Both the position numbers and the translations under genes were made by a program. A stretch of 9,363 nucleotides of DNA from Candidatus Hydrogenedentes bacterium CG07_land_8_20_14_0_80_42_17 (GTDB lineage Bacteria; UBA8481): the NCBI GenBank assembly GCA_002780065.1, contig PEWQ01000116.1, positions 1 through 9,363 of the forward strand, given 5' to 3'. Below the pieces are notes generated by a model, which saw only the letters and a list, made by a program, of their open reading frames with translations, was not told the DNA's origin and made no database searches. Position 1 is the first letter of the stretch. Every line of letters begins with the position of its first letter. Of the stretch, positions 1 to 9,363 are shown one piece after another.

Positions 1-3000
1 TCGCTGATCCAGCATATCGACCATCTTCGAGATCGAAGAGACTACATCGTTAGGTCCGATAAGGATAAGAGCATTCAGCCATTCGACCGGAACCACCTTT
101 AGCTGATTAATTCTGGTCCCTGCAATCGCCATCAGTTGCTGTTCTGTTGGTGTAGTAGAAGGTATTTGTTCGCCTGGTGAAAGAGTCACCACAGGTTCGC
201 CGTATTCGTTCAGAGCAACATCTCTTCTGTTTTGAGTTTGCCTTGCGCGGTTAGTAAGACCCGCGGCTTCGGTCTGAAGGTTCTTCAAAAGGGTTTGAAG
301 CGCTACGGCATTGGCGTATTTCAGCCGCCTCACAATAAGAGTATCGCCAACTTTGATTCCAGTGTCGAGAAATGATTCAATCAGCCGCTTCACAGGCACT
401 TCATCAAAATCCATCGGAACTAAGAGAACTGCTTTGCCCAACTTCGGATCAATGAACATCTTCGTTCCGGGATAAAGCGCAGTCATCATCTGTTCGAGAA
501 TCTGTGGATCAAGCCCCGCAGTATTAATCACAAAGGGCTTGACCGAGGCGGCAGGACTTACAGAACGCAGAGTCTTGACAATCTCCTCAATAGGAGCCTT
601 ATCGAATTGGGGATCTACAAAGAGAACGAGCTGACCTGACGGAACATCGGAAATTATTTTTATTCCCGGATACATTGTGCGGATCATGTCTTCAACTTTT
701 GCGAGGTCCACGCCTTGGGCATGAACAATAATCGGCTTAACTGAAGAGACTACTGTATCCAATTCCGCAACAAGAATCTCGATGGAGTTCATCAACTCCT
801 TCGGAGCGGTCACGATAAGTTTATTCGTTCTATCATCTGATACAGAAAGAATTTTCTGAGTTGCAACCTGCGACTGAGCCTGTTGATTCTGAGCCCTTTG
901 CTGAGGAGTAGGCTCCCCTTCTTCCGTAGGCTGAGGTGTTGCCCTGCGCCTCGAACGCGAAGTTCCTTGTCCGTCAAGCCCTACCTGCAATTCAGTCTGC
1001 TTGAAGAGCGAATCAAGAATCGGCACTATAGCTGAAGCAAGAGTAAATCTTATTTGAAATACTTTCGTGACAGCGGCAGTCGCTTCTTTATCCTGACTTG
1101 TAAATAGCCCGACATTTTCCGGCTTATCCAATTCAGTTAAAATTCGGGAGAGTTGTTCTGCTGTTGCAGATGATCCGACAAAAACAAATCCGCCCTGGCC
1201 GGGAAATATCTTATCTTCCGTGCCAATAAAATTCGCAAGATAATCTTTAAGCGAGTCGGCTTTCAAATTTTCGAGTCTGAATATTCTGCTTTCGAATCCG
1301 CGGCCGAGCCGTTCGATAATATCGTAAACTCTTCTTATGTTCACAATAAAATCGGTTATGACAATCTGCCCTGAAACAGGATCCGTAATCACTCGAGCAT
1401 CAGGCGTCAGCAGTTCTTTTGCAGAAGCCACAAGCTGTTCCATATTTCTACCGCGAACCGGAATCATCACTGTCCTAACAACATCCTGAGGCAAAGTCTT
1501 TAAGAGCTCCGGATCAGTGATCACATTCTGTCCTCTGGTCTGAGCTTCTACAAAGGTCATAATGCGTATCGAGCCGTCAGGCTCTTCAAGCCTCGTTAAA
1601 CTCTTCATTGCCAGAATCTTATCCAGAGCATCGTCGATGGGCATATTCTCGAAATGAACAGTCACGTTCGCATCGGCAACAGCATTGACTCCGTCGGATA
1701 TTATCAAATTCCAATTTGCAATGCGGCCAAGAAATCTCAAAATATCCGGAACAGGCGTCTGATAAAAATCCATCGAGACGAGCTGAGGCATCACATTAAT
1801 TTTGAACTGAGTAAATCGTGTAATCTCCCCTGTTGTAAAGGATGCCTGAAGAATCTGCTCACCTGATTGAGCCCCTGTAGACCACGATCTCAAAATTGCT
1901 TTTCCATCTCGATCCGACTCGATCTCATTCTGATTTCCCGGAGTTTCAGGATCAGCATCTATAGTTCCATTCCCCTTGATGTAACTCCATTCGACTTTAA
2001 CTCCGGGCACAGGATTTCCATAAACATCCTGCACAATCGCAATCAGCGGGTCTGAAACACTCTGCCTGGTCCTCACTCGAATATCATCGTAACCAATACC
2101 TTTTACAGTGTCAGGAGGTCTCGGAAGAGCATACAGCTCAAACGATGCTTCAGCAGGAGTGCCCTCAACCTGCGCCGAAACAATCTTGCGGCCGGCTGTC
2201 CTATCAAGAGCCACTCGCGTTGTAGCTACACCGCCGGCATCTGTCAAAGTTTCAGAAGGATCAATCTTCAAATCAGTTGCAACAGACTTGAACGCAACTT
2301 TAATTCCTGAAAGCGGAGCACCGGTCGAGGCGTCAGTGACTCTAATTGTCAAAGCTTCGGAAAGAGGATCTGCAACCAGCCCCCGTTGAAAATTTCCGCC
2401 CATAATTTCCAAGAAATATCTTTCAGTAGAAACCGGCGGTCTGTAAAGTCCGGTCGACTCGATACTAGAGCTTGGCTTCTGCTCAGTCATCTCAATCACT
2501 ATTTCATCTTCACCGCTGAAGATTGTCGGAGAAACAGCAGTATCCCGCAAATCAATCACAATGCGCGTCACAAGCGGTTCTGCTGAGAGCTGACTGTGCC
2601 TCACTCTCTTCACTGCGCCGTAATCGAGATCGAGCCCGCCTCTCGGCATTGCGTCCAAGAGCCCTGGGATATCGATAGCTATCATGGTTCCGATCTTTTG
2701 CTGAGACCATTCGCCGGTTCCGCCGACAAAATGAATCGTTATCGTTGTCTTTCGCCCTTCACCTTTTGCAGTCACAGCATAAACGCCGTCTTTTCGATAC
2801 TGACTCGGAGTTCCAGGAAACATTTTTTTCCAATTGAGAGGAATTTGAGAAGAAGGCGAAGTCAAAATTCGCGGGTCCGCGATTCGCGGAGACGCCGCAG
2901 TGTTACGATCAGGCTCGATATTCGCAACTGCTCCGGAATGCGTTCCTGAAAGAGTTCTGATTCTTTCGCGTTCAAGCTCAATTTTAATTTCAGTTAAAAG

Positions 3001-3204
3001 TTTTATCGCCTCGTCCATTCTCGGATGATTTGGATTTTCAGAAATAAATCTTCGCACTTCATTCTCAGCGGCGTCAAGCGAACCCAATGCAAAATAGACG
3101 GCAGCTTGTTCAATGGTTGCTGTCGGTTCAACCGAATGCGATGGAATCGCTCCTAAAAAAATAGTTGCTAGAAAAATCAGCGAAATTAAAAATTTACTTC
3201 TCAT
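1..3204 (-). CDS. pilQ: PilQ-type secretin, N-terminal 1068 residues (3' end outside window)
   Basis: Outer-membrane secretin of a type IV pilus. The frame is open from ATG 3204 to base 1 (1068 codons, no stop), so the C-terminal pore is outside the window. Visible order: signal peptide (1-24, MRSKFLISLIFLATIFLGA), a TPR-like helical stretch (26-78), AMIN domain (about 140-240), two invasin-like Ig domains (about 261-360 and 363-472, the second with DVYGNPVPGVKVEW), N0/STN domain (474-555, MDFYQTPVPDILRFL then NMPIDDALDKIL), and six N1-like ring modules (577-636, 639-695, 714-816, 822-882, 889-947, 955-1067). Modules 3 and 6 carry low-complexity loop insertions (about 737-785, Arg/Gln/Pro-rich, and about 977-1030). 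The start follows directly on the upstream TAG and has AGAGGA with GAGG 7 nt before the ATG. AMIN, N0 and N1 order is typical of PilQ; Ig domains and six N1 modules are not usual. The gspD alternative is less likely because of AMIN. The family call is firm, although the diagnostic pore is unseen. Confidence 0.9.
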   Translation of the reverse strand, partial: MRSKFLISLIFLATIFLGAIPSHSVEPTATIEQAAVYFALGSLDAAENEVRRFISENPNHPRMDEAIKLLTEIKIELERERIRTLSGTHSGAVANIEPDRNTAASPRIADPRILTSPSSQIPLNWKKMFPGTPSQYRKDGVYAVTAKGEGRKTTITIHFVGGTGEWSQQKIGTMIAIDIPGLLDAMPRGGLDLDYGAVKRVRHSQLSAEPLVTRIVIDLRDTAVSPTIFSGEDEIVIEMTEQKPSSSIESTGLYRPPVSTERYFLEIMGGNFQRGLVADPLSEALTIRVTDASTGAPLSGIKVAFKSVATDLKIDPSETLTDAGGVATTRVALDRTAGRKIVSAQVEGTPAEASFELYALPRPPDTVKGIGYDDIRVRTRQSVSDPLIAIVQDVYGNPVPGVKVEWSYIKGNGTIDADPETPGNQNEIESDRDGKAILRSWSTGAQSGEQILQASFTTGEITRFTQFKINVMPQLVSMDFYQTPVPDILRFLGRIANWNLIISDGVNAVADANVTVHFENMPIDDALDKILAMKSLTRLEEPDGSIRIMTFVEAQTRGQNVITDPELLKTLPQDVVRTVMIPVRGRNMEQLVASAKELLTPDARVITDPVSGQIVITDFIVNIRRVYDIIERLGRGFESRIFRLENLKADSLKDYLANFIGTEDKIFPGQGGFVFVGSSATAEQLSRILTELDKPENVGLFTSQDKEATAAVTKVFQIRFTLASAIVPILDSLFKQTELQVGLDGQGTSRSRRRATPQPTEEGEPTPQQRAQNQQAQSQVATQKILSVSDDRTNKLIVTAPKELMNSIEILVAELDTVVSSVKPIIVHAQGVDLAKVEDMIRTMYPGIKIISDVPSGQLVLFVDPQFDKAPIEEIVKTLRSVSPAASVKPFVINTAGLDPQILEQMMTALYPGTKMFIDPKLGKAVLLVPMDFDEVPVKRLIESFLDTGIKVGDTLIVRRLKYANAVALQTLLKNLQTEAAGLTNRARQTQNRRDVALNEYGEPVVTLSPGEQIPSTTPTEQQLMAIAGTRINQLKVVPVEWLNALILIGPNDVVSSISKMVDMLDQR

Positions 3205-6200
3205 CTATTTTCCTCTTCTCATTAAATTCATCAACTGTTCGATCCTTTGCTTCATTCTGACAGCGTTCTCGTCACCCGGATGAGCCTCGAGATAAGAATC
3301 AAGAATCCTCAAAGCTGAATCATATCTTCCCGCACGAATTTCAGTTTCGGCAGAACTTATGCTCGGCTCTCCGGATTCAATACGATTTTGTATAGGTAAT
3401 GAAGGAGTTTGTAAAGCTGGAAATGAAGATTGTATTCCATATTGTTGTTGAGGTGCAGATTGAATGTTCTGCTGATATGGAAGAATCAGCTCCAATCGCC
3501 TCTTCAGGTTCAATAGCGACGCATCTTGCGGATACGCTCCAAGCATGATATTGACGAGCTGTAGAGCTTCTCCGAAACGATTTTCTTTAACTAATTTGTC
3601 GATATCCGACATTGTCGGCAAAGAAGCTGTCGACGGCCGATTAGAAGCAGGCTGATTAATCGAAGGAGTCGTAGAAGAAGTTGGCGGCGCAAAAATTCCT
3701 ACAGGTGCGGCGTTGAGAACAGGATCCACGCTCAACAAAATTCTATTTGCGTCTTCTGCTGAACGAACAGTTGCCGGAGCTGAAGTATGAACCAAAACTC
3801 TAACGCCGAACTCATCCTGATTCATTGCAACAAGAGAAACTATTCCTGAAGACTTAACAATTCTCGGTCCTGCCGAAGAAAGAATTGCTCCCGGAATTAC
3901 CATTTCAAAGATAGATTCAGTCACTCGAGAAATATCAAACTTCGGAGTTTCCGAATTAAGCATAACGGAAATAATAGTGCCTCCGCCTTGCTCATTCGCC
4001 AATGCAGAAACCACTTCAGGTCTCGAAAGAGTTCCTGCGGCAATTCTATCCACTCCGACCTCTACAGCTTCAGCCTTGTCGTAAATCGCGTAGATAACTG
4101 CCTGCCCGTCTTGAAAGAGACTTCCGCGCAATGTCGACGGCAAAAATACGCCTGACGCAGGCATGGACACGTCATGCCGTGTCCCTACGGACGCAAACAA
4201 CCGAACTCCGCTTCCGTCTCTTCCAAAATTCGCCACTTGATTGTCAAACGCATCCAACGCAGTAATTCTCATCTTCATAGGTTCGCCTGCTTTCATTCCA
4301 TTCTGCATCAAGCTCTCAACTTTAAAATGATCAACCGGTCCTGCTGAAATATCTAAAACTCCAAACTTTCCGTTTATTCTTAAAACCTCGTCTTTGACTT
4401 CAAAAATAATTTTTCCTGATTTTTTCGGCAAAACGCTGACCTCGGCAATTCCTTCACGAAATCGCATTTGAGCTATATTGCCGAGTTCAACCGCATCATT
4501 CACGATTCCACCGTTAGAGTCGAGAACTCTAAGCGTAAGAGAAGTTGCCGGCGGCGAATAATCGCGGATACGATTATTCAACTTGTCTCTCATCTCTATT
4601 CGCAGAGTCATCGGGATTCCAACTTCCGCAGTCAAAGGCGACGAAACCAAAATCTTTGCGGGACGAGAAGGAAGTATTCGAATTAAATCACTTTTACCGG
4701 TCACTCTTCCTCCAACCTCTTCGGCAAAAAGAACTGCGTCGCCGGTTCTGATAAACGTTGCAGAAATCTCCGCAGTTCCGTTCTGAAAGAGCGAAGACGA
4801 AACAAGTTGAGGCGTCATCGGCTCGCCATTCTCCATGTAAAGCGAAATGCTTCTATTGAGCGCAGAATAGGCTACAACAGGGTTTCCGAACTCATCAAGC
4901 ACTTTAATTTTAATCTTTACCGGCTCGCCCGCAGTTGCCGATGAAGGTAATTCCAGACCAAAAATTTTCGGAGCCGCATGGGTCACAAGAACATTTCCGC
5001 TCTGTCCTTCTGCAACTCCGCCTTGCTCAGAAAGTGTTATCTTAATCTCTTCCGCAGTGTTATACGTAAACTTAACTTTTGCAATTCCGTTTTCGAAAGA
5101 AGAAGGAGGAATAGACGCAGGAGCAAAATCACCCTGACCGGAACTTTTAACAACAATACCGTTTCCGGTTCGCTGATAATCCTCAACTATATTTCCAAAA
5201 CGATCTAAAGCTGTTATCTCAACCTCGAACGGCTCATGAGCAATTGCAATAGTAGCCGTCTTAATCGAATAAGAAGCCACACCTCCGGATTTTATCTGAA
5301 CAGGATTTGATCTGCCGCCCGCTCCTGTCACTTCATCGATAACCTGAAGAACAAGCTGACCCGCGCGCTCCGGAGTGACAGAGATAAAAGCAACACCGTC
5401 TGAAAAAGATTCCGAATTCAAAGTCGGAGCAGAAATCAAAGATGCATCAGCAGAGGTCAGCACAGCCCGCATGTTTCTATTTCCGTAGTCACGAATAATG
5501 TTTCCGTAAAGATCATATCCGATTATCTGCACTGCAATCGGCTCGCCGGCTCTGCCGCGCTCGGCAGGTATAACATCGAACCGTCCCAATCTGCCGCCGG
5601 TGATCTCTACTTTTTCCCTGCTCTCGCCTCTCTTGGCTCCGCCTGCATCCTGAGCAATGACGGTTATTCTCTCTGCAACGTTGTATCTTACATTCACCAT
5701 CGCAATGCCCGCATTGAAGGCAGTAGGCGGCACTGTGGCCGGTTCCAGCATTCCAGTTCCCGAGGTCTTCAATTCGACAACTCCGCCAAATCTGTTGTAG
5801 TCAAGAATCGTGTTTCCGTTTTGGTCTTTCGCCTCGATCATAATGCTGAACGGTTCTCCTGCAGAAATCGGACGAGACGGAATTGAAACCGCAAACGTAT
5901 GCAGTTCGCCTGCTCTTACATCGAACTCGCGTGAAACTCCGCTGGCAGAACCTGATGCGCAAAGTATCGAAGTCCGCTCGGCTTGAGTATATCGAACCTT
6001 TACCGAAGCTCGGCCTTTGCTGAAATATGACGGCGAAATTCTTTCAGGCTCAAATCTTCCAATCGCTCCCACAGTTCCCGGCTTTATTACAACTTCAGAG
6101 CCGTATCTGTCATAATCGGCAACTGAATTTCCGTAAGCATCGTAGAGTTCGACAACGATGTCGAATGGATTAGAAACGCGAACTTCATTCGGAGCAGTGA

Positions 6201-6738
6201 CTCTGATCGTAGAAACTTTTCCGGGGCTGACATCGATTCGACCCGTGCGGGAAGAGACTCGCAGAATCGGATCGGCAACATCGAGTTCCATAGTTCCGGA
6301 TTTAGTTAAAACTACTTGAGCTGAAAGTATTCCTGCCCGAAACGCGCTTGCAGGGAATCTATTCGGTTCTATTCCGGCACTGCGTTCAGAACCTGATATT
6401 GTCTGAAGAGAAATTCCGCCGCCAATGCGATCGTAATCAGTCACAAGATTCCCCTGCGCGTCGCGCACTTCAATCTTCAATGTGACCGGTTCTCCTGCTC
6501 GAGCAATAGCAGGAACAGATATTTCAAACGTCGAAGGACGCCCTGGAGCAATATTTAGAACTTGAGCATTTGACGCAATTGAGAAGATGAAAAGAGAAAA
6601 AATCGCCTTCATGAATAGAGAAATTGCTTTTTTATTGGAAGCACGTGCGCCCACGCACATGCTCGATAAGCATTTCATCCGGAGGCACGTGCGCCCCGCA
6701 CGTGCTCGATAAGTCGTTCGAGCAAAATTACTAATCAT
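3205..6738 (-). CDS. Secreted protein with eight Ig-like repeats, AMIN domain and TPR-like C-terminus
   Basis: Not a recognised standard pilus gene. From ATG 6738 it has 1177 residues. An odd basic, Cys-containing leader (about 5-35) comes before a clear signal sequence (MKAIFSLFIFSIASNA, 43-58, probable cleavage before Q59). Eight repeats of about 100 residues follow (66-906), each with an AGEP-like turn, a D-x-x-GN-x-x-x-DY-like motif and a later F-x-x-G-x-A strand; then an AMIN-like domain (about 918-1006), a Pro/Ser/Thr linker, a TPR-like helix pair (1043-1086), a Gln/Pro-rich linker and a second TPR-like pair (1127-1172). AMIN domains in PilQ and AmiC bind peptidoglycan, so a periplasmic, wall-bound role is likely. 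It lies between pilP and pilQ, and its stop abuts the secretin ATG. Start choice: ATG 6738 has GGAGG 5 nt upstream; TTG 6750 and ATG 6612 are alternatives. Palindromic elements interrupt the leader and repeat 8 without breaking the frame. Inferred role: periplasmic scaffold for the secretin. Confidence 0.85.
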   Translation of the reverse strand: MISNFARTTYRARAGRTCLRMKCLSSMCVGARASNKKAISLFMKAIFSLFIFSIASNAQVLNIAPGRPSTFEISVPAIARAGEPVTLKIEVRDAQGNLVTDYDRIGGGISLQTISGSERSAGIEPNRFPASAFRAGILSAQVVLTKSGTMELDVADPILRVSSRTGRIDVSPGKVSTIRVTAPNEVRVSNPFDIVVELYDAYGNSVADYDRYGSEVVIKPGTVGAIGRFEPERISPSYFSKGRASVKVRYTQAERTSILCASGSASGVSREFDVRAGELHTFAVSIPSRPISAGEPFSIMIEAKDQNGNTILDYNRFGGVVELKTSGTGMLEPATVPPTAFNAGIAMVNVRYNVAERITVIAQDAGGAKRGESREKVEITGGRLGRFDVIPAERGRAGEPIAVQIIGYDLYGNIIRDYGNRNMRAVLTSADASLISAPTLNSESFSDGVAFISVTPERAGQLVLQVIDEVTGAGGRSNPVQIKSGGVASYSIKTATIAIAHEPFEVEITALDRFGNIVEDYQRTGNGIVVKSSGQGDFAPASIPPSSFENGIAKVKFTYNTAEEIKITLSEQGGVAEGQSGNVLVTHAAPKIFGLELPSSATAGEPVKIKIKVLDEFGNPVVAYSALNRSISLYMENGEPMTPQLVSSSLFQNGTAEISATFIRTGDAVLFAEEVGGRVTGKSDLIRILPSRPAKILVSSPLTAEVGIPMTLRIEMRDKLNNRIRDYSPPATSLTLRVLDSNGGIVNDAVELGNIAQMRFREGIAEVSVLPKKSGKIIFEVKDEVLRINGKFGVLDISAGPVDHFKVESLMQNGMKAGEPMKMRITALDAFDNQVANFGRDGSGVRLFASVGTRHDVSMPASGVFLPSTLRGSLFQDGQAVIYAIYDKAEAVEVGVDRIAAGTLSRPEVVSALANEQGGGTIISVMLNSETPKFDISRVTESIFEMVIPGAILSSAGPRIVKSSGIVSLVAMNQDEFGVRVLVHTSAPATVRSAEDANRILLSVDPVLNAAPVGIFAPPTSSTTPSINQPASNRPSTASLPTMSDIDKLVKENRFGEALQLVNIMLGAYPQDASLLNLKRRLELILPYQQNIQSAPQQQYGIQSSFPALQTPSLPIQNRIESGEPSISSAETEIRAGRYDSALRILDSYLEAHPGDENAVRMKQRIEQLMNLMRRGK
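4021..6543 (-). repeat. Array of eight Ig-like domain repeats (protein level)
   Basis: Eight units of about 100 codons in the large secreted protein. Unit starts (residues from ATG 6738) are near 66, 172, 276, 381, 484, 588, 690 and 799. Shared marks are AGEP, then DAQGNLVTDY, DAYGNSVADY, DQNGNTILDY, DLYGNIIRDY, DRFGNIVEDY, DEFGNPVVAY, DKLNNRIRDY and DAFDNQVANF, then F-x-x-G-x-A. DNA identity between units is low, so this is an old protein-level expansion. The first six keep GN; units 7 and 8 have degenerate turns (LNN, FDN). The pattern resembles bacterial Ig-like (Big/invasin-type) adhesin and filament repeats. Confidence 0.85.
4154..4194 (-). repeat. In-frame palindromic element inside Ig repeat 8
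   Basis: A 20-bp near-palindrome, GGACACGTCATGCCGTGTCC (4165-4184; 7-bp arms, six-base centre containing CATG), lies in a 31-bp segment (4159-4189). The segment is flanked on the coding strand by GCGTC at 4190-4194 and again at 4154-4158. Segment plus one flank is 36 bp, exactly 12 codons. It codes VGTRHDVSMPAS (residues 851-862). Without it, Ig repeat 8 reads LFASGVFLPSTL and aligns in length with the other repeats. Confidence 0.7.
6637..6670 (-). repeat. Palindromic repeat copy B, diverged
   Basis: 34-bp second copy starting with the same CTTATCGAGC on the coding strand and ending CTTCC where copy A ends CCTCC. It differs by a few substitutions and one extra loop base. In the coding-strand RNA the arm change gives a G-U wobble (GCAUGUGCG against CGCACGUGC), so the hairpin is kept. 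Ten bases (6671-6680) separate the copies, which are in direct orientation with a 43-bp period. No T-run follows the hairpin on the coding strand, so it is not a terminator. Confidence 0.8.
6681..6713 (-). repeat. Palindromic repeat copy A in the leader of the Ig-repeat gene
   Basis: 33-bp element beginning CTTATCGAGC on the coding strand. It contains a perfect hairpin: 9-bp arms GCACGTGCG and CGCACGTGC (6685-6693 and 6697-6705) around a 3-base loop. It shares its ends with copy B at 6637-6670. It is translated as part of the residues between the preferred ATG and the signal sequence. It is clearly more GC-rich than the AT-rich signal-peptide DNA beside it. Confidence 0.85.
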
Positions 6739-6751: not shown

Positions 6752-7378
6752 TCATCTTCTCCTGGTTCCTTTGTATTCTATCCTTCCTCTTATTGCCGAT
6801 GTGTCGCCGCCGCTAAACCATGGTTGAGCAGACAAACCTGGCTGAGTCAAAGGTAGAAAAGTATTCTCTGCACCTGGTTGCGTCAACAATATCCCCTGAG
6901 CAGTTATCTTTGAAGCTCTTATGTTTTCGGTTCCCGGAATAATTTGCCCCTGCCGAACCTCAGCGGAATTTTCCTCCGAAGTGCTCATCAAAGCCATGTA
7001 TCTGCCGTTCAAACTAATTATGCCAAGTATTCGCAAGTTGTCTGTAGGAATAGGTAAAACTAATACTACCTCAGACTCAGTCTCTTCTTCCGAAGTATCT
7101 CCTTGCTTTGATTCAGTTTTCGGAGCTTCGAACGGGTCCCACGTTAATAGTTGTGACGGAGGAAAACCGGTCTTTATCTGAACTGTATCTTCTTCTTCCA
7201 ATCCTTGTTGCTTCAAATGTATTACCGAACCTGCTAATGTAGATTCATCGATTTTAGTCAGTTCGCTTATACCCTCTGTAGTTTTCAAATATAATGGATA
7301 CGCTATACCGAGGTCGAGCAGTAACAATATTAAAACACCAATCTTAGAATAATCAACTTTAGGCATTGCAAAGGCCAT
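6752..7378 (-). CDS. pilP: PilP-like inner-membrane-to-secretin linker protein, transmembrane anchored
   Basis: Small periplasmic linker of 208 residues. A short N-terminus is followed by one transmembrane helix (about 13-31, IGVLILLLLDLGIAYPLYL), an acidic flexible region with a WDPFEAP motif (80-86, like the DPF motif of PilP), and a compact beta-rich domain (about 114-175, LRILGIISLNGRYMALM then VRQGQIIP and ITAQGILL) matching the PilP/GspC homology-region pattern. PilP is usually a lipoprotein; this protein has no cysteine, so it cannot be lipidated and is held by the helix instead, as GspC is in type II secretion. ATG 7378 overlaps the pilO TGA by one base and has GGAGG 8 nt upstream, so it is preferred over the internal ATG at 7366. 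Expected role: contacts PilN-PilO below and the secretin N0 domain above. The family call rests on fold pattern and operon position. Confidence 0.8.
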   Translation of the reverse strand: MAFAMPKVDYSKIGVLILLLLDLGIAYPLYLKTTEGISELTKIDESTLAGSVIHLKQQGLEEEDTVQIKTGFPPSQLLTWDPFEAPKTESKQGDTSEEETESEVVLVLPIPTDNLRILGIISLNGRYMALMSTSEENSAEVRQGQIIPGTENIRASKITAQGILLTQPGAENTFLPLTQPGLSAQPWFSGGDTSAIRGRIEYKGTRRR

Positions 7379-8139
7379 CAGCGTGTCCTCCCGCCGGTGT
7401 CTTTTGTCGGAACGGCAATAGAAGATGATGAAGTTTCCTTACCTGCTTGACTGCCGATATGAGCCGTTGCTGACTTTTGTAAAGCTGAAGTATCAGTCGG
7501 CACTCCAGTATCAGTCGCTACTGAAGTATCAGCAGATTCTGAAGCCTGAACAGGCTCAGGATTATTAGGCGCCAACGGAGTTTGCTCTTCCGGCAAATTC
7601 AAAAGATCTTCACCTTCTCCGGCAATATACGAATAAGTCTCAAGATTTAAATCTAAATCGTACGCAGCTTTTCCGGTCCGGCTCATTGATAAATTTGTTA
7701 TGTTTACAATTCTATGAAACTGTCTGATTTCATAAATCAATCTAACAATTTGCGAAATTTTTAATCCTTTAATACCATTGATTCTAATCGGATGAACTCT
7801 ATAAATATCTTTTTCAACTGCAAGCTCCACATTCTTGGAAGCAATATCCGATGAAGAAATACCGGCTTTCTCCATAATGGGAGTAAGCATTACAAGCAGA
7901 TCCGAAAGTTCCGAAGCTGAAGGAAGCTTTTCAAGCGATACTTTCAGGCGTTTCTTCAGTTCTAATTCCTCTTCTTTAATTTGAGCCAATTTAGGAGCAT
8001 TGCTTCTTGCAGAGCTAATGTTTCCTTTTAGAGTTGCAATCTCTTCGCCCCATTTCTTATATTCAGGATAAAGCTGGTCGTAGCCGTAATAACCTGCAAG
8101 TCCCAGAAGTAGAACAACATAAATAATGTTCTTATTCAT
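7378..8139 (-). CDS. pilO: PilO, type IV pilus inner-membrane alignment protein
   Basis: 253-residue bitopic protein: transmembrane helix (about 4-20, NIIYVVLLLGLAGYYGY), charged coiled coil (about 24-75), and a ferredoxin-like domain (about 76-175) with LKVSLEKLPSASELSDLL and the YEIRQFHRIVNI stretch characteristic of PilO. In known systems PilO pairs with PilN in the periplasm and binds PilP. The last 75 or so residues are a low-complexity Ser/Thr/Ala/Pro tail with short TDT repeats (TSVATDTGVPTDTSA, DNA near 7490-7535 repeating agtatcagt-like words); it is longer than in typical PilO and probably disordered. The start overlaps the upstream stop in an ATGA arrangement (8136-8139), with GGAG 7 nt before the ATG, indicating translational coupling. 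The alternative GspM is less likely given the PilM-type actin domain upstream and AMIN domain downstream. Confidence 0.9.
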   Translation of the reverse strand: MNKNIIYVVLLLGLAGYYGYDQLYPEYKKWGEEIATLKGNISSARSNAPKLAQIKEEELELKKRLKVSLEKLPSASELSDLLVMLTPIMEKAGISSSDIASKNVELAVEKDIYRVHPIRINGIKGLKISQIVRLIYEIRQFHRIVNITNLSMSRTGKAAYDLDLNLETYSYIAGEGEDLLNLPEEQTPLAPNNPEPVQASESADTSVATDTGVPTDTSALQKSATAHIGSQAGKETSSSSIAVPTKDTGGRTR

Positions 8140-9363
8140 TGTGTGACTCCGGAATTATCCTGCGAAAATTCGGCTGATTCCATTTCATCAGCTGAACCTA
8201 AAGACTGAAATTTAAATGTAATTGGAGCATCCCATGACCAATAATCAACTTCGTCTTCTTTAGTTCGCTGAAGATTGATTCCTGTACCGGAATAAGTCAA
8301 ACATGCAGAAGATTGAATATTCTTGTAACAGATTCTTGCATTCTCTTCCACGTTTGTCTTTAGGTGAAGAGTGAAACCGGCTGGTGTCCAAACCAAAGTC
8401 TGGTCCGTAATCCAAACATTTTCCGGAATAGCCTTTCGCACTGACTCCATGATCGCAATCCAATCATATTTTGATACTTCAAGTTCGTTTATTGCTTTGA
8501 AGCGTTCGTCCAATTGGTCTCTTCTCTTCTGCATCTCGCTCATTCGCGCAAGAACATCTTTATTCAAAACAGGTTTGTCATCAATGATAAGAGGCTGTCC
8601 ATTAATTTTTACCTGTCCTTCATATTCAGCAGTTAACTCCGCCAAAGCTGTCTTCATGTTGTTGTAAGTAAACCAAAGAAAAGTGCCGACTTCACAAATA
8701 AGAATAATTCCTAAGACAGAAGCGTATTGCTTCCATACTACACGAGAGCTCATTGCAATTTGAGCATAAAGATCGCTTGGTAAAAGGTTCAGAGTGATAT
8801 TTTCTGTTGAAAGCAAAGTTAGAGCCAATCCGAAAGCAGATTGATAAATTGCAGGATTAGACATTGCAGATTCCGGAACTTTTGCAGAGCCAAAAGTGTC
8901 AAGTTCGATAACTTCAAGATTCAGTCTTGCACTCAAAAATTCCTTCAACCCATTCAAGCGCATTGCGCCGCCGGTTATGTAAATCTTCGAAACTGCAACT
9001 CCATCTTCTTGAGAGGTATAATATTCCAAAGAGCGGCGAATCTCCGCAAGTAATCGTTCAGCCAAAGGTTGAACAATTGCGTTAGGATCTTTTGCCGGGT
9101 CAGAATCCATTCCCTGTTCTTCACCTCCACTAGGTGGACGAGGTGGAGAAGGTGGACGAGGTGGAGCCATCGGCGGTGCAGGCGGCTTTGCACCCATCAG
9201 TCCCGCTCCCGGCGCAGACGGCGGTGGAGCCATCGGCGGTACGGGTGCCTTAGCGCCCATCAATCCCGCTCCAGGCGCAGACGGTGGTGAAGGCATCGGC
9301 GGTGCAGGCGGCTTTGCACCCATCAGTCCCGCACCCGGCGCAGGCGGCGGTAGAGCCATTGGC
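8136..9363 (-). CDS. PilM-PilN fusion protein, C-terminal part (start outside window)
   Basis: The reading frame enters from the right edge; the visible part holds the end of a PilM actin-like domain fused to a PilN-like protein. Counting from the Met codon at 9359, residues 1-80 are a Pro/Ala/Gly-rich linker made of 21-residue repeats; 93-185 are the C-terminal PilM lobe, with EIRRSLEYY and the phosphate-loop-like YITGGAMRLNGL (127-138); 186-193 (NITLNLLP) is the INLLP-type peptide by which separate PilN binds PilM; 212-231 is a transmembrane helix; 235-295 a coiled-coil stretch; about 297-385 a ferredoxin-like periplasmic domain with two Cys (345, 353). The Met at 9359 lies inside the repeat array, so it is not the start. 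Actin lobe, one helix and periplasmic domain in one chain is also the topology of GspL in type II secretion. Role: cytoplasmic and inner-membrane platform that pairs with PilO. Confidence 0.88.
   Translation of the reverse strand, partial: PMALPPPAPGAGLMGAKPPAPPMPSPPSAPGAGLMGAKAPVPPMAPPPSAPGAGLMGAKPPAPPMAPPRPPSPPRPPSGGEEQGMDSDPAKDPNAIVQPLAERLLAEIRRSLEYYTSQEDGVAVSKIYITGGAMRLNGLKEFLSARLNLEVIELDTFGSAKVPESAMSNPAIYQSAFGLALTLLSTENITLNLLPSDLYAQIAMSSRVVWKQYASVLGIILICEVGTFLWFTYNNMKTALAELTAEYEGQVKINGQPLIIDDKPVLNKDVLARMSEMQKRRDQLDERFKAINELEVSKYDWIAIMESVRKAIPENVWITDQTLVWTPAGFTLHLKTNVEENARICYKNIQSSACLTYSGTGINLQRTKEDEVDYWSWDAPITFKFQSLGSADEMESAEFSQDNSGVTQ
9168..9363 (-). repeat. 63-bp tandem repeats coding for a Pro/Ala/Gly-rich linker in PilM
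   Basis: Three complete 63-bp units start at 9168, 9231 and 9294, and a fourth begins at 9357 (cattggc against catcggc) and leaves the window. Each codes for a 21-residue unit of the form APPPSAPGAGLMGAKPPAP plus PM. The units differ at several positions, some synonymous and some not. The array ends in a simpler PPRPPSPPRPPSGG stretch (DNA 9124-9167). It lies before the EIRRSLEYY helix, where PilM proteins normally have a variable loop. The length is a multiple of three, so copy-number change would keep the frame. Confidence 0.93.

Follow-up and report, generated by a model that had tools for sequence, protein, structure and literature searches.

We propose, with moderate confidence, that the product of open reading frame (ORF) X, a gene inserted between pilP and pilQ in Candidatus Hydrogenedentes bacterium CG07_land_8_20_14_0_80_42_17, is a soluble, wall-binding periplasmic scaffold of a giant type IV pilus (T4P) secretin, PilQ. 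The gene lies on contig PEWQ01000116.1 (C147 in our numbering; the genome comprises 2.39 Mb in 207 contigs), and the full 9,363-nt stretch of this contig is referred to below as the window. The original prediction, made from the letters of the window, described a 1177-residue secreted protein between the two pil genes with eight immunoglobulin (Ig)-like repeats, an AMIN-like domain and TPR-like ends. The ORF, its export signal and its place were confirmed, and so were the eight repeats and, by fold, the AMIN-like domain; TPR-like units were found at the C-terminus and not at the N-terminus, the other TPR end of the operon being the N-terminus of PilQ. The features of X and of its partner are as follows.

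3205..6738, minus strand: ORF X, encoding an exported 8xIg-AMIN-TPR protein, 1177 amino acids (aa) from ATG 6738 or 1135 aa from ATG 6612
6565..6612, minus strand: signal-peptide core MKAIFSLFIFSIASNA, signal peptidase I (SPase I) type without a lipobox, from sequence and hydropathy
3991..6546, minus strand: eight Ig-like domains, residues 23-874 of the 1135-aa form, from a repeat hidden Markov model (HMM), AlphaFold2 and multi-Ig matches in Foldseek
3718..4017, minus strand: predicted AMIN-fold domain, residues ~866-965, from a separate model of residues 863-1135 (pLDDT ~85)
3472..3612, minus strand: first C-terminal TPR-like three-helix unit, residues 1001-1047, from structure models
3217..3360, minus strand: second C-terminal TPR-like unit, residues 1085-1132 (PF13428, 26.1 bits against a cut-off of 23.5)
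1..3204, minus strand: N-terminal 1068 aa of PilQ, with a TPR unit, AMIN, two Ig (Big_1), STN and Secretin_N repeats
1807..2406, minus strand: the two Ig domains of PilQ, residues 267-466, seen in our survey in X-bearing lineages only

The repeat HMM, built from X itself, finds eight Ig-like domains of ~105 aa each, and exactly eight in each of six X relatives as well. The array qualifies as a chain of Ig-type beta-sandwiches (PF23616, 65 bits against a cut-off of 27); the Big_1 (30.3 against 34.9 bits) and Invasin_D3 (14.6 against 33 bits) matches of X fall below their cut-offs. An AlphaFold2 model of the complete protein, built with five sequences and with a mean pLDDT of 75, consists of a chain of beta-sandwiches, an extra beta domain at residues 866-962 and two three-helix units, and Foldseek returns for this whole model only generic multi-Ig proteins such as a nuclear-pore luminal chain and A2M. 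The extra domain, modelled separately, is predicted to share its fold with AMIN domains, namely that of AmiC (Z 13.1) and those of PilQ from Neisseria (B2; 13.0) and Myxococcus (12.3), with the four AMIN rows (Z 13.1, 13.0, 13.0 and 12.3) clearly higher than unrelated rows, a root-mean-square deviation of 1.9-3.3 Å over 95-101 residues and an identity of 13-23%. Because the Pfam AMIN profile PF11741 does not match X, we label the domain AMIN-fold and not a member of Pfam AMIN; the same profile also misses the AMIN domain of the window's own PilQ, yet scores in PilQ orthologs. Profile-profile comparison of X with PilQ AMIN regions is suggestive only (p 0.0016, probability 16%), and the assignment was therefore made by fold. 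Whereas the AMIN domain of PilQ opens a secretin, that of X comes after eight Ig domains. The TPR units are confined to the C-terminus, two in the window protein and one in more distant orthologs, the last unit being common to all.

X is predicted to be exported via the Sec pathway and to be soluble. X and its orthologs have SPase I-like N-termini with neither a lipobox nor a conserved Cys, hydropathy gives no membrane helix in X beyond the signal peptide, and domain search and hydropathy together yield no barrel, sorting signal or surface anchor.

Full-length X is a real protein family. A single-sequence scan of the genome contigs of a 386-genome sample with X gave no match, and a profile scan located full-length X in seven of the 386 genomes (E value below 1e-240), which account for every sampled member of three tiny phyla: the two from the window's own phylum (the sister being RFFU01000058, labelled Candidatus Hydrogenedentota), 3/3 in the phylum that holds Candidatus Lindowbacteria, and both in the phylum that holds bacterium T1Sed10_126. 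The genomes are metagenome-assembled, and because each phylum holds only two or three sampled genomes, few independent events are represented. All seven carry full-length X with eight Ig domains, encoded after pilMNO(P) and before pilQ. In a fourth phylum this operon place is taken by a shorter X, the order in G133 being pilMN-pilO-pilP-X-pilQ and the contig of G270 ending within X. X is thus encoded inside the pilMNOPQ operon in four phyla, as is to be looked for in a T4P accessory. In a fifth lineage (G094, G362), pilP is followed first by a three-Ig form and then by a TPR-AMIN protein encoded separately (L055 3516-6085, L057 1138-3656), as though X had been divided into two proteins; L144, from a third genome of this three-Ig family, has no Ig gene at that place. 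Eight as a universal count of Ig domains was rejected, given the shorter forms in G133/G270 and f95.

The original prediction had held that homologues found mostly away from pilus operons would speak against it. For full-length X the outcome favours it (pil operon in 7/7, with the short form likewise there in the fourth phylum), whereas at the level of single Ig domains it does not: the other matches at E 1e-10 are mostly unrelated proteins with multiple Ig domains, or short relatives that stand alone outside pil loci. Generic matches of this kind are expected because the Ig fold is common. Shorter X-matching Ig proteins stand alone in G261, G148, G372 and G160, and stand-alone exported proteins with X-like Ig domains lie away from pil operons at L056 7452-9191, L058 6562-7989, L059 7359-9194 and L060 6873-8009. 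In the sister genome, L192 4019-7531 (G001:C136) encodes TPR-like and Ig parts with an apparent BamA-type beta-barrel C-terminus, as judged by eye.

The second line of evidence comes from PilQ. For comparison we surveyed 80 pilM loci of other lineages, taken from the best-scoring pilM matches and not at random, 65 of which show a secretin; these secretins have a median length of 719 aa and a maximum of 1,084 aa. The PilQ proteins that co-occur with X span 1,614 to roughly 2,900 aa (1,614 to 2,201 aa for the complete ones). The rest of the window PilQ is probably located on contig C204 (L190; 1547 aa), assigned to the same gene by alignment to the sister genome G001, with an estimated gap of ~100 aa between the parts; pieces combined, the window and G001 proteins are each roughly 2,700-2,900 aa. 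The domain order in X lineages is a TPR unit, AMIN, two Ig domains, ~5 to 20 Secretin_N-type ring domains and the secretin domain, followed, wherever the C-terminus is available, by HHH_3 repeats; these ComEA-type repeats suggest a role in DNA uptake. The two-Ig module is present in 8/8 PilQ of X-bearing loci (six plus G133 and G001) and in 0/65 of the surveyed secretins, and with it the N-terminus of PilQ carries all three kinds of module found in X: TPR unit, AMIN and Ig. The giant PilQ loci are window 1-3204 plus G000:C204 (L190), L013 1880-10797, L014 1229-7834, L015 9555-14399, L065 2710-9090 and L179 9752-15637. In G001, pilQ is split by one frame break within AMIN (L013 10024-10797 / 1880-10219), possibly an assembly error.

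In the proposed scaffold, the C-terminal AMIN domain of X would, to judge from its fold, bind the cell wall, and the C-terminal TPR unit, perhaps with Ig domains, would dock on the neighbouring PilQ. The eight-Ig rod, about 30 nm long if extended (our own estimate, at about 4 nm per Ig domain), could then form a strut, or one stave of a cage, alongside the unusually long stacked-ring vestibule of PilQ and may keep it aligned with both wall and inner-membrane platform. An accessory part of the pilus channel had been suggested in the original prediction; the operon position and the AMIN fold support this in part, and contact with the secretin is presumed. Tentatively, the proposal can be carried further: X might be a fixed-length, wall-anchored strut of an undescribed T4P class, in which a giant secretin of ~5-20 rings, with its Ig collar and ComEA-type HhH, is surrounded by a cage of X rods, allowing a pilus or a DNA-uptake channel to cross an unusually deep envelope.

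Several observations weigh against the scaffold. The number of Ig domains is unrelated to the number of PilQ rings (eight Ig with ~5 to 20 rings), and a simple ruler is therefore unsupported. The X of the fourth phylum is much shorter, yet its PilQ is similarly large, and in the fifth lineage the three-Ig form goes with a PilQ of ordinary size, about 670 aa. Compared position by position, the Ig domains show strong homology inside a lineage and weak homology across lineages (222/20,000 permutations overall, none for lineages A-B, with domains 7 and 8 agreeing in all three); an ancestral eight-domain array is for this reason not claimed. Finally, Ig proteins near pilQ in other bacteria resemble surface lipoproteins, which is why a surface role of X keeps a share of the probability.

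That surface role, which we regard as rather unlikely, would make X an adhesin or filament with the Ig rod pointing outward and the AMIN and TPR parts as anchor, exported through the secretin or presented beside it. Adhesins often carry multi-Ig arrays, and in 9/65 surveyed pil loci a multi-Ig gene lies ≤2.6 kb downstream of pilQ, so that Ig proteins near pilQ are a recurring theme and not unique to X; those tested have Big_1/Invasin_D3 domains, and several have lipobox-like N-termini. The original prediction had called for a survey of pil loci for the same insertion: X recurs there in four phyla, and no Ig ORF was found on the pilM side among the 65 other loci. Although both are multi-Ig proteins in pil loci, X is set apart from the downstream genes by Ig family, position (upstream of pilQ), domain set (no AMIN or TPR match in those tested) and the lack of a lipid anchor. 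An adhesin is also at odds with the sub-threshold Big_1 and Invasin_D3 matches, with the absence from X of a lipobox, barrel, sorting signal or membrane anchor (the original prediction had named surface adhesins with no contact to the secretin as an outcome that would speak against it), and with an Ig number fixed at eight over three phyla, since adhesin arrays would usually vary; the modelled AMIN fold, too, would imply wall contact in the periplasm. The downstream multi-Ig loci are L083, L089, L098, L102, L104, L108, L113 and L117 (Big_1-type) and L091 (X-type Ig match); in L102 and L113 the gene sits between pilQ and an aroC-like gene.

A transient role for X in secretin assembly, as a soluble equivalent of Tgl/PilF whose TPR unit binds unfolded PilQ, is distinctly unlikely. 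X does bear TPR units and is encoded beside PilQ, an oversized PilQ may need help, and Tgl is required for PilQ multimerisation in Myxococcus (PMC10653833). Such pilotins are outer-membrane lipoproteins with a multi-TPR groove, whereas X lacks a lipobox and has, in place of the ~six-repeat groove, only one or two TPR units, and a chaperone would not need eight Ig domains. Membership in the TPR pilotins (PilF/PilW/Tgl) was rejected on the grounds of lipobox and TPR number, and the likeness to PilF/Tgl-type pilotins drawn in the original prediction falls with it; the likeness to FimV also fails, X having neither a LysM match nor a membrane helix after the signal peptide, and membership in FimV/HubP, which have LysM, a membrane helix and a cytoplasmic part with TPR at its C-terminus, was rejected. 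A general role of X in the envelope or wall, with an operon place that is historical and no contact with the pilus machine, is very unlikely: stand-alone relatives in four genomes speak for it, but the operon position is kept in four phyla and X goes together with the giant two-Ig PilQ, a form that no other surveyed locus has.

Among known systems, the proposed scaffold role of X finds its closest parallels in proteins that connect a secretin or motor to the envelope. The AMIN domains of PilQ are wall-binding and make secretin assembly possible (PMC10653833). In Thermus, the gene for PilW sits between pilO and pilQ (pilMNOWQ); PilW links the membranes, is needed for PilQ assembly and is long in a wide periplasm (PMC13039148). 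Like X, it is an extended periplasmic protein encoded directly before pilQ; unlike X, it replaces PilP and has a GspC-HR-like domain, whereas the X locus keeps a separate pilP, and X, built of Ig, AMIN and TPR modules, gave no match to PilP or GspC-HR domains. The top Foldseek match of the C-terminal model of X is PDB entry 9hmf chain K, which from its length and title appears to be PflA, the spoke of the Campylobacter flagellar motor scaffold. PflA, which combines AMIN and TPR, is a scaffold protein in a flagellar motor some of whose parts derive from T4P (PMC11870540). It shares with X the periplasmic scaffold character and the combination of an AMIN-type domain with TPR repeats, and differs in its opposite domain order, its about 17 TPRs, the lack of an Ig array and its flagellar rather than pilus setting; because 9hmf_K is not among the VIA-align rows listed, PflA is a functional parallel of X and not a shown homologue. 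TsaP is a wall-binding accessory of the pilus secretin that acts via LysM; membership of X was rejected, as the domain search gave no LysM match. Our search of the open-licence literature turned up no previous account of Ig/AMIN proteins at T4P secretins.

The operon in the window reads PilM-PilN fusion (cut by the contig end), PilO, PilP, X and PilQ (which runs off the contig), with these further features.

6752..7378, minus strand: pilP (PF04351, E 0.0013, weak and below cut-off, plus position)
7378..8139, minus strand: pilO (PF04350, 55 bits, 1e-14)
8136..9362, minus strand: C-terminal part of the PilM-PilN fusion, the gene being cut by the contig end
6637..6713: dispersed palindromic repeat, two copies ~44 bp apart, in frame in the 5' end of ORF X

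Within window 9150-9362, PilM parts of the fusion are joined by tandem Pro/Ala/Gly-rich repeats (APGAGLMGAKPPAPPMAPPP...), and comparable Pro-rich stretches occur in G001 and G270. The pilQ start (3204) adjoins X with 0 nt between, and the pilP stop (6752) lies 13 nt from X when ATG 6738 is used. This codon has a good Shine-Dalgarno motif, GGAGG, and the hydrophobic signal-peptide core begins at ATG 6612; the true start is uncertain, and mature X is identical with either. The original prediction had taken the 13-bp and 0-bp spacings as a sign that X is made in step with the secretin: the 0-bp spacing is confirmed, the 13-bp spacing holds only with ATG 6738, and because the start is uncertain the 13-bp spacing is no proof of coupled expression and was dropped as an argument. 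The repeat copies (GGARGCACGTGCGCCC..GCACRTGCTCGATAAG) are situated between the pilP stop and the X signal peptide and encode residues ~7-35 counted from ATG 6738. BLAST of this stretch against the genome found itself and 13 other places (14 in total, E < 0.01), most of them in stretches without a long frame and one in frame within a lysyl-tRNA synthetase-like gene (L072 ~1428-1536, G000:C175). Dispersed in-frame palindromic repeats of this kind recall Rickettsia palindromic elements.

Known T4P machines are built from a small conserved set of periplasmic parts. If the proposed role is true, a protein with a fixed set of eight Ig domains and an AMIN end, found solely alongside oversized secretins, would add a new structural component to the pilus channel. 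It would then represent, besides PflA, PilW and TsaP, one more means by which a secretin or motor is fastened to the wall, and would show how the machine has been adapted in lineages known mainly from metagenomes.

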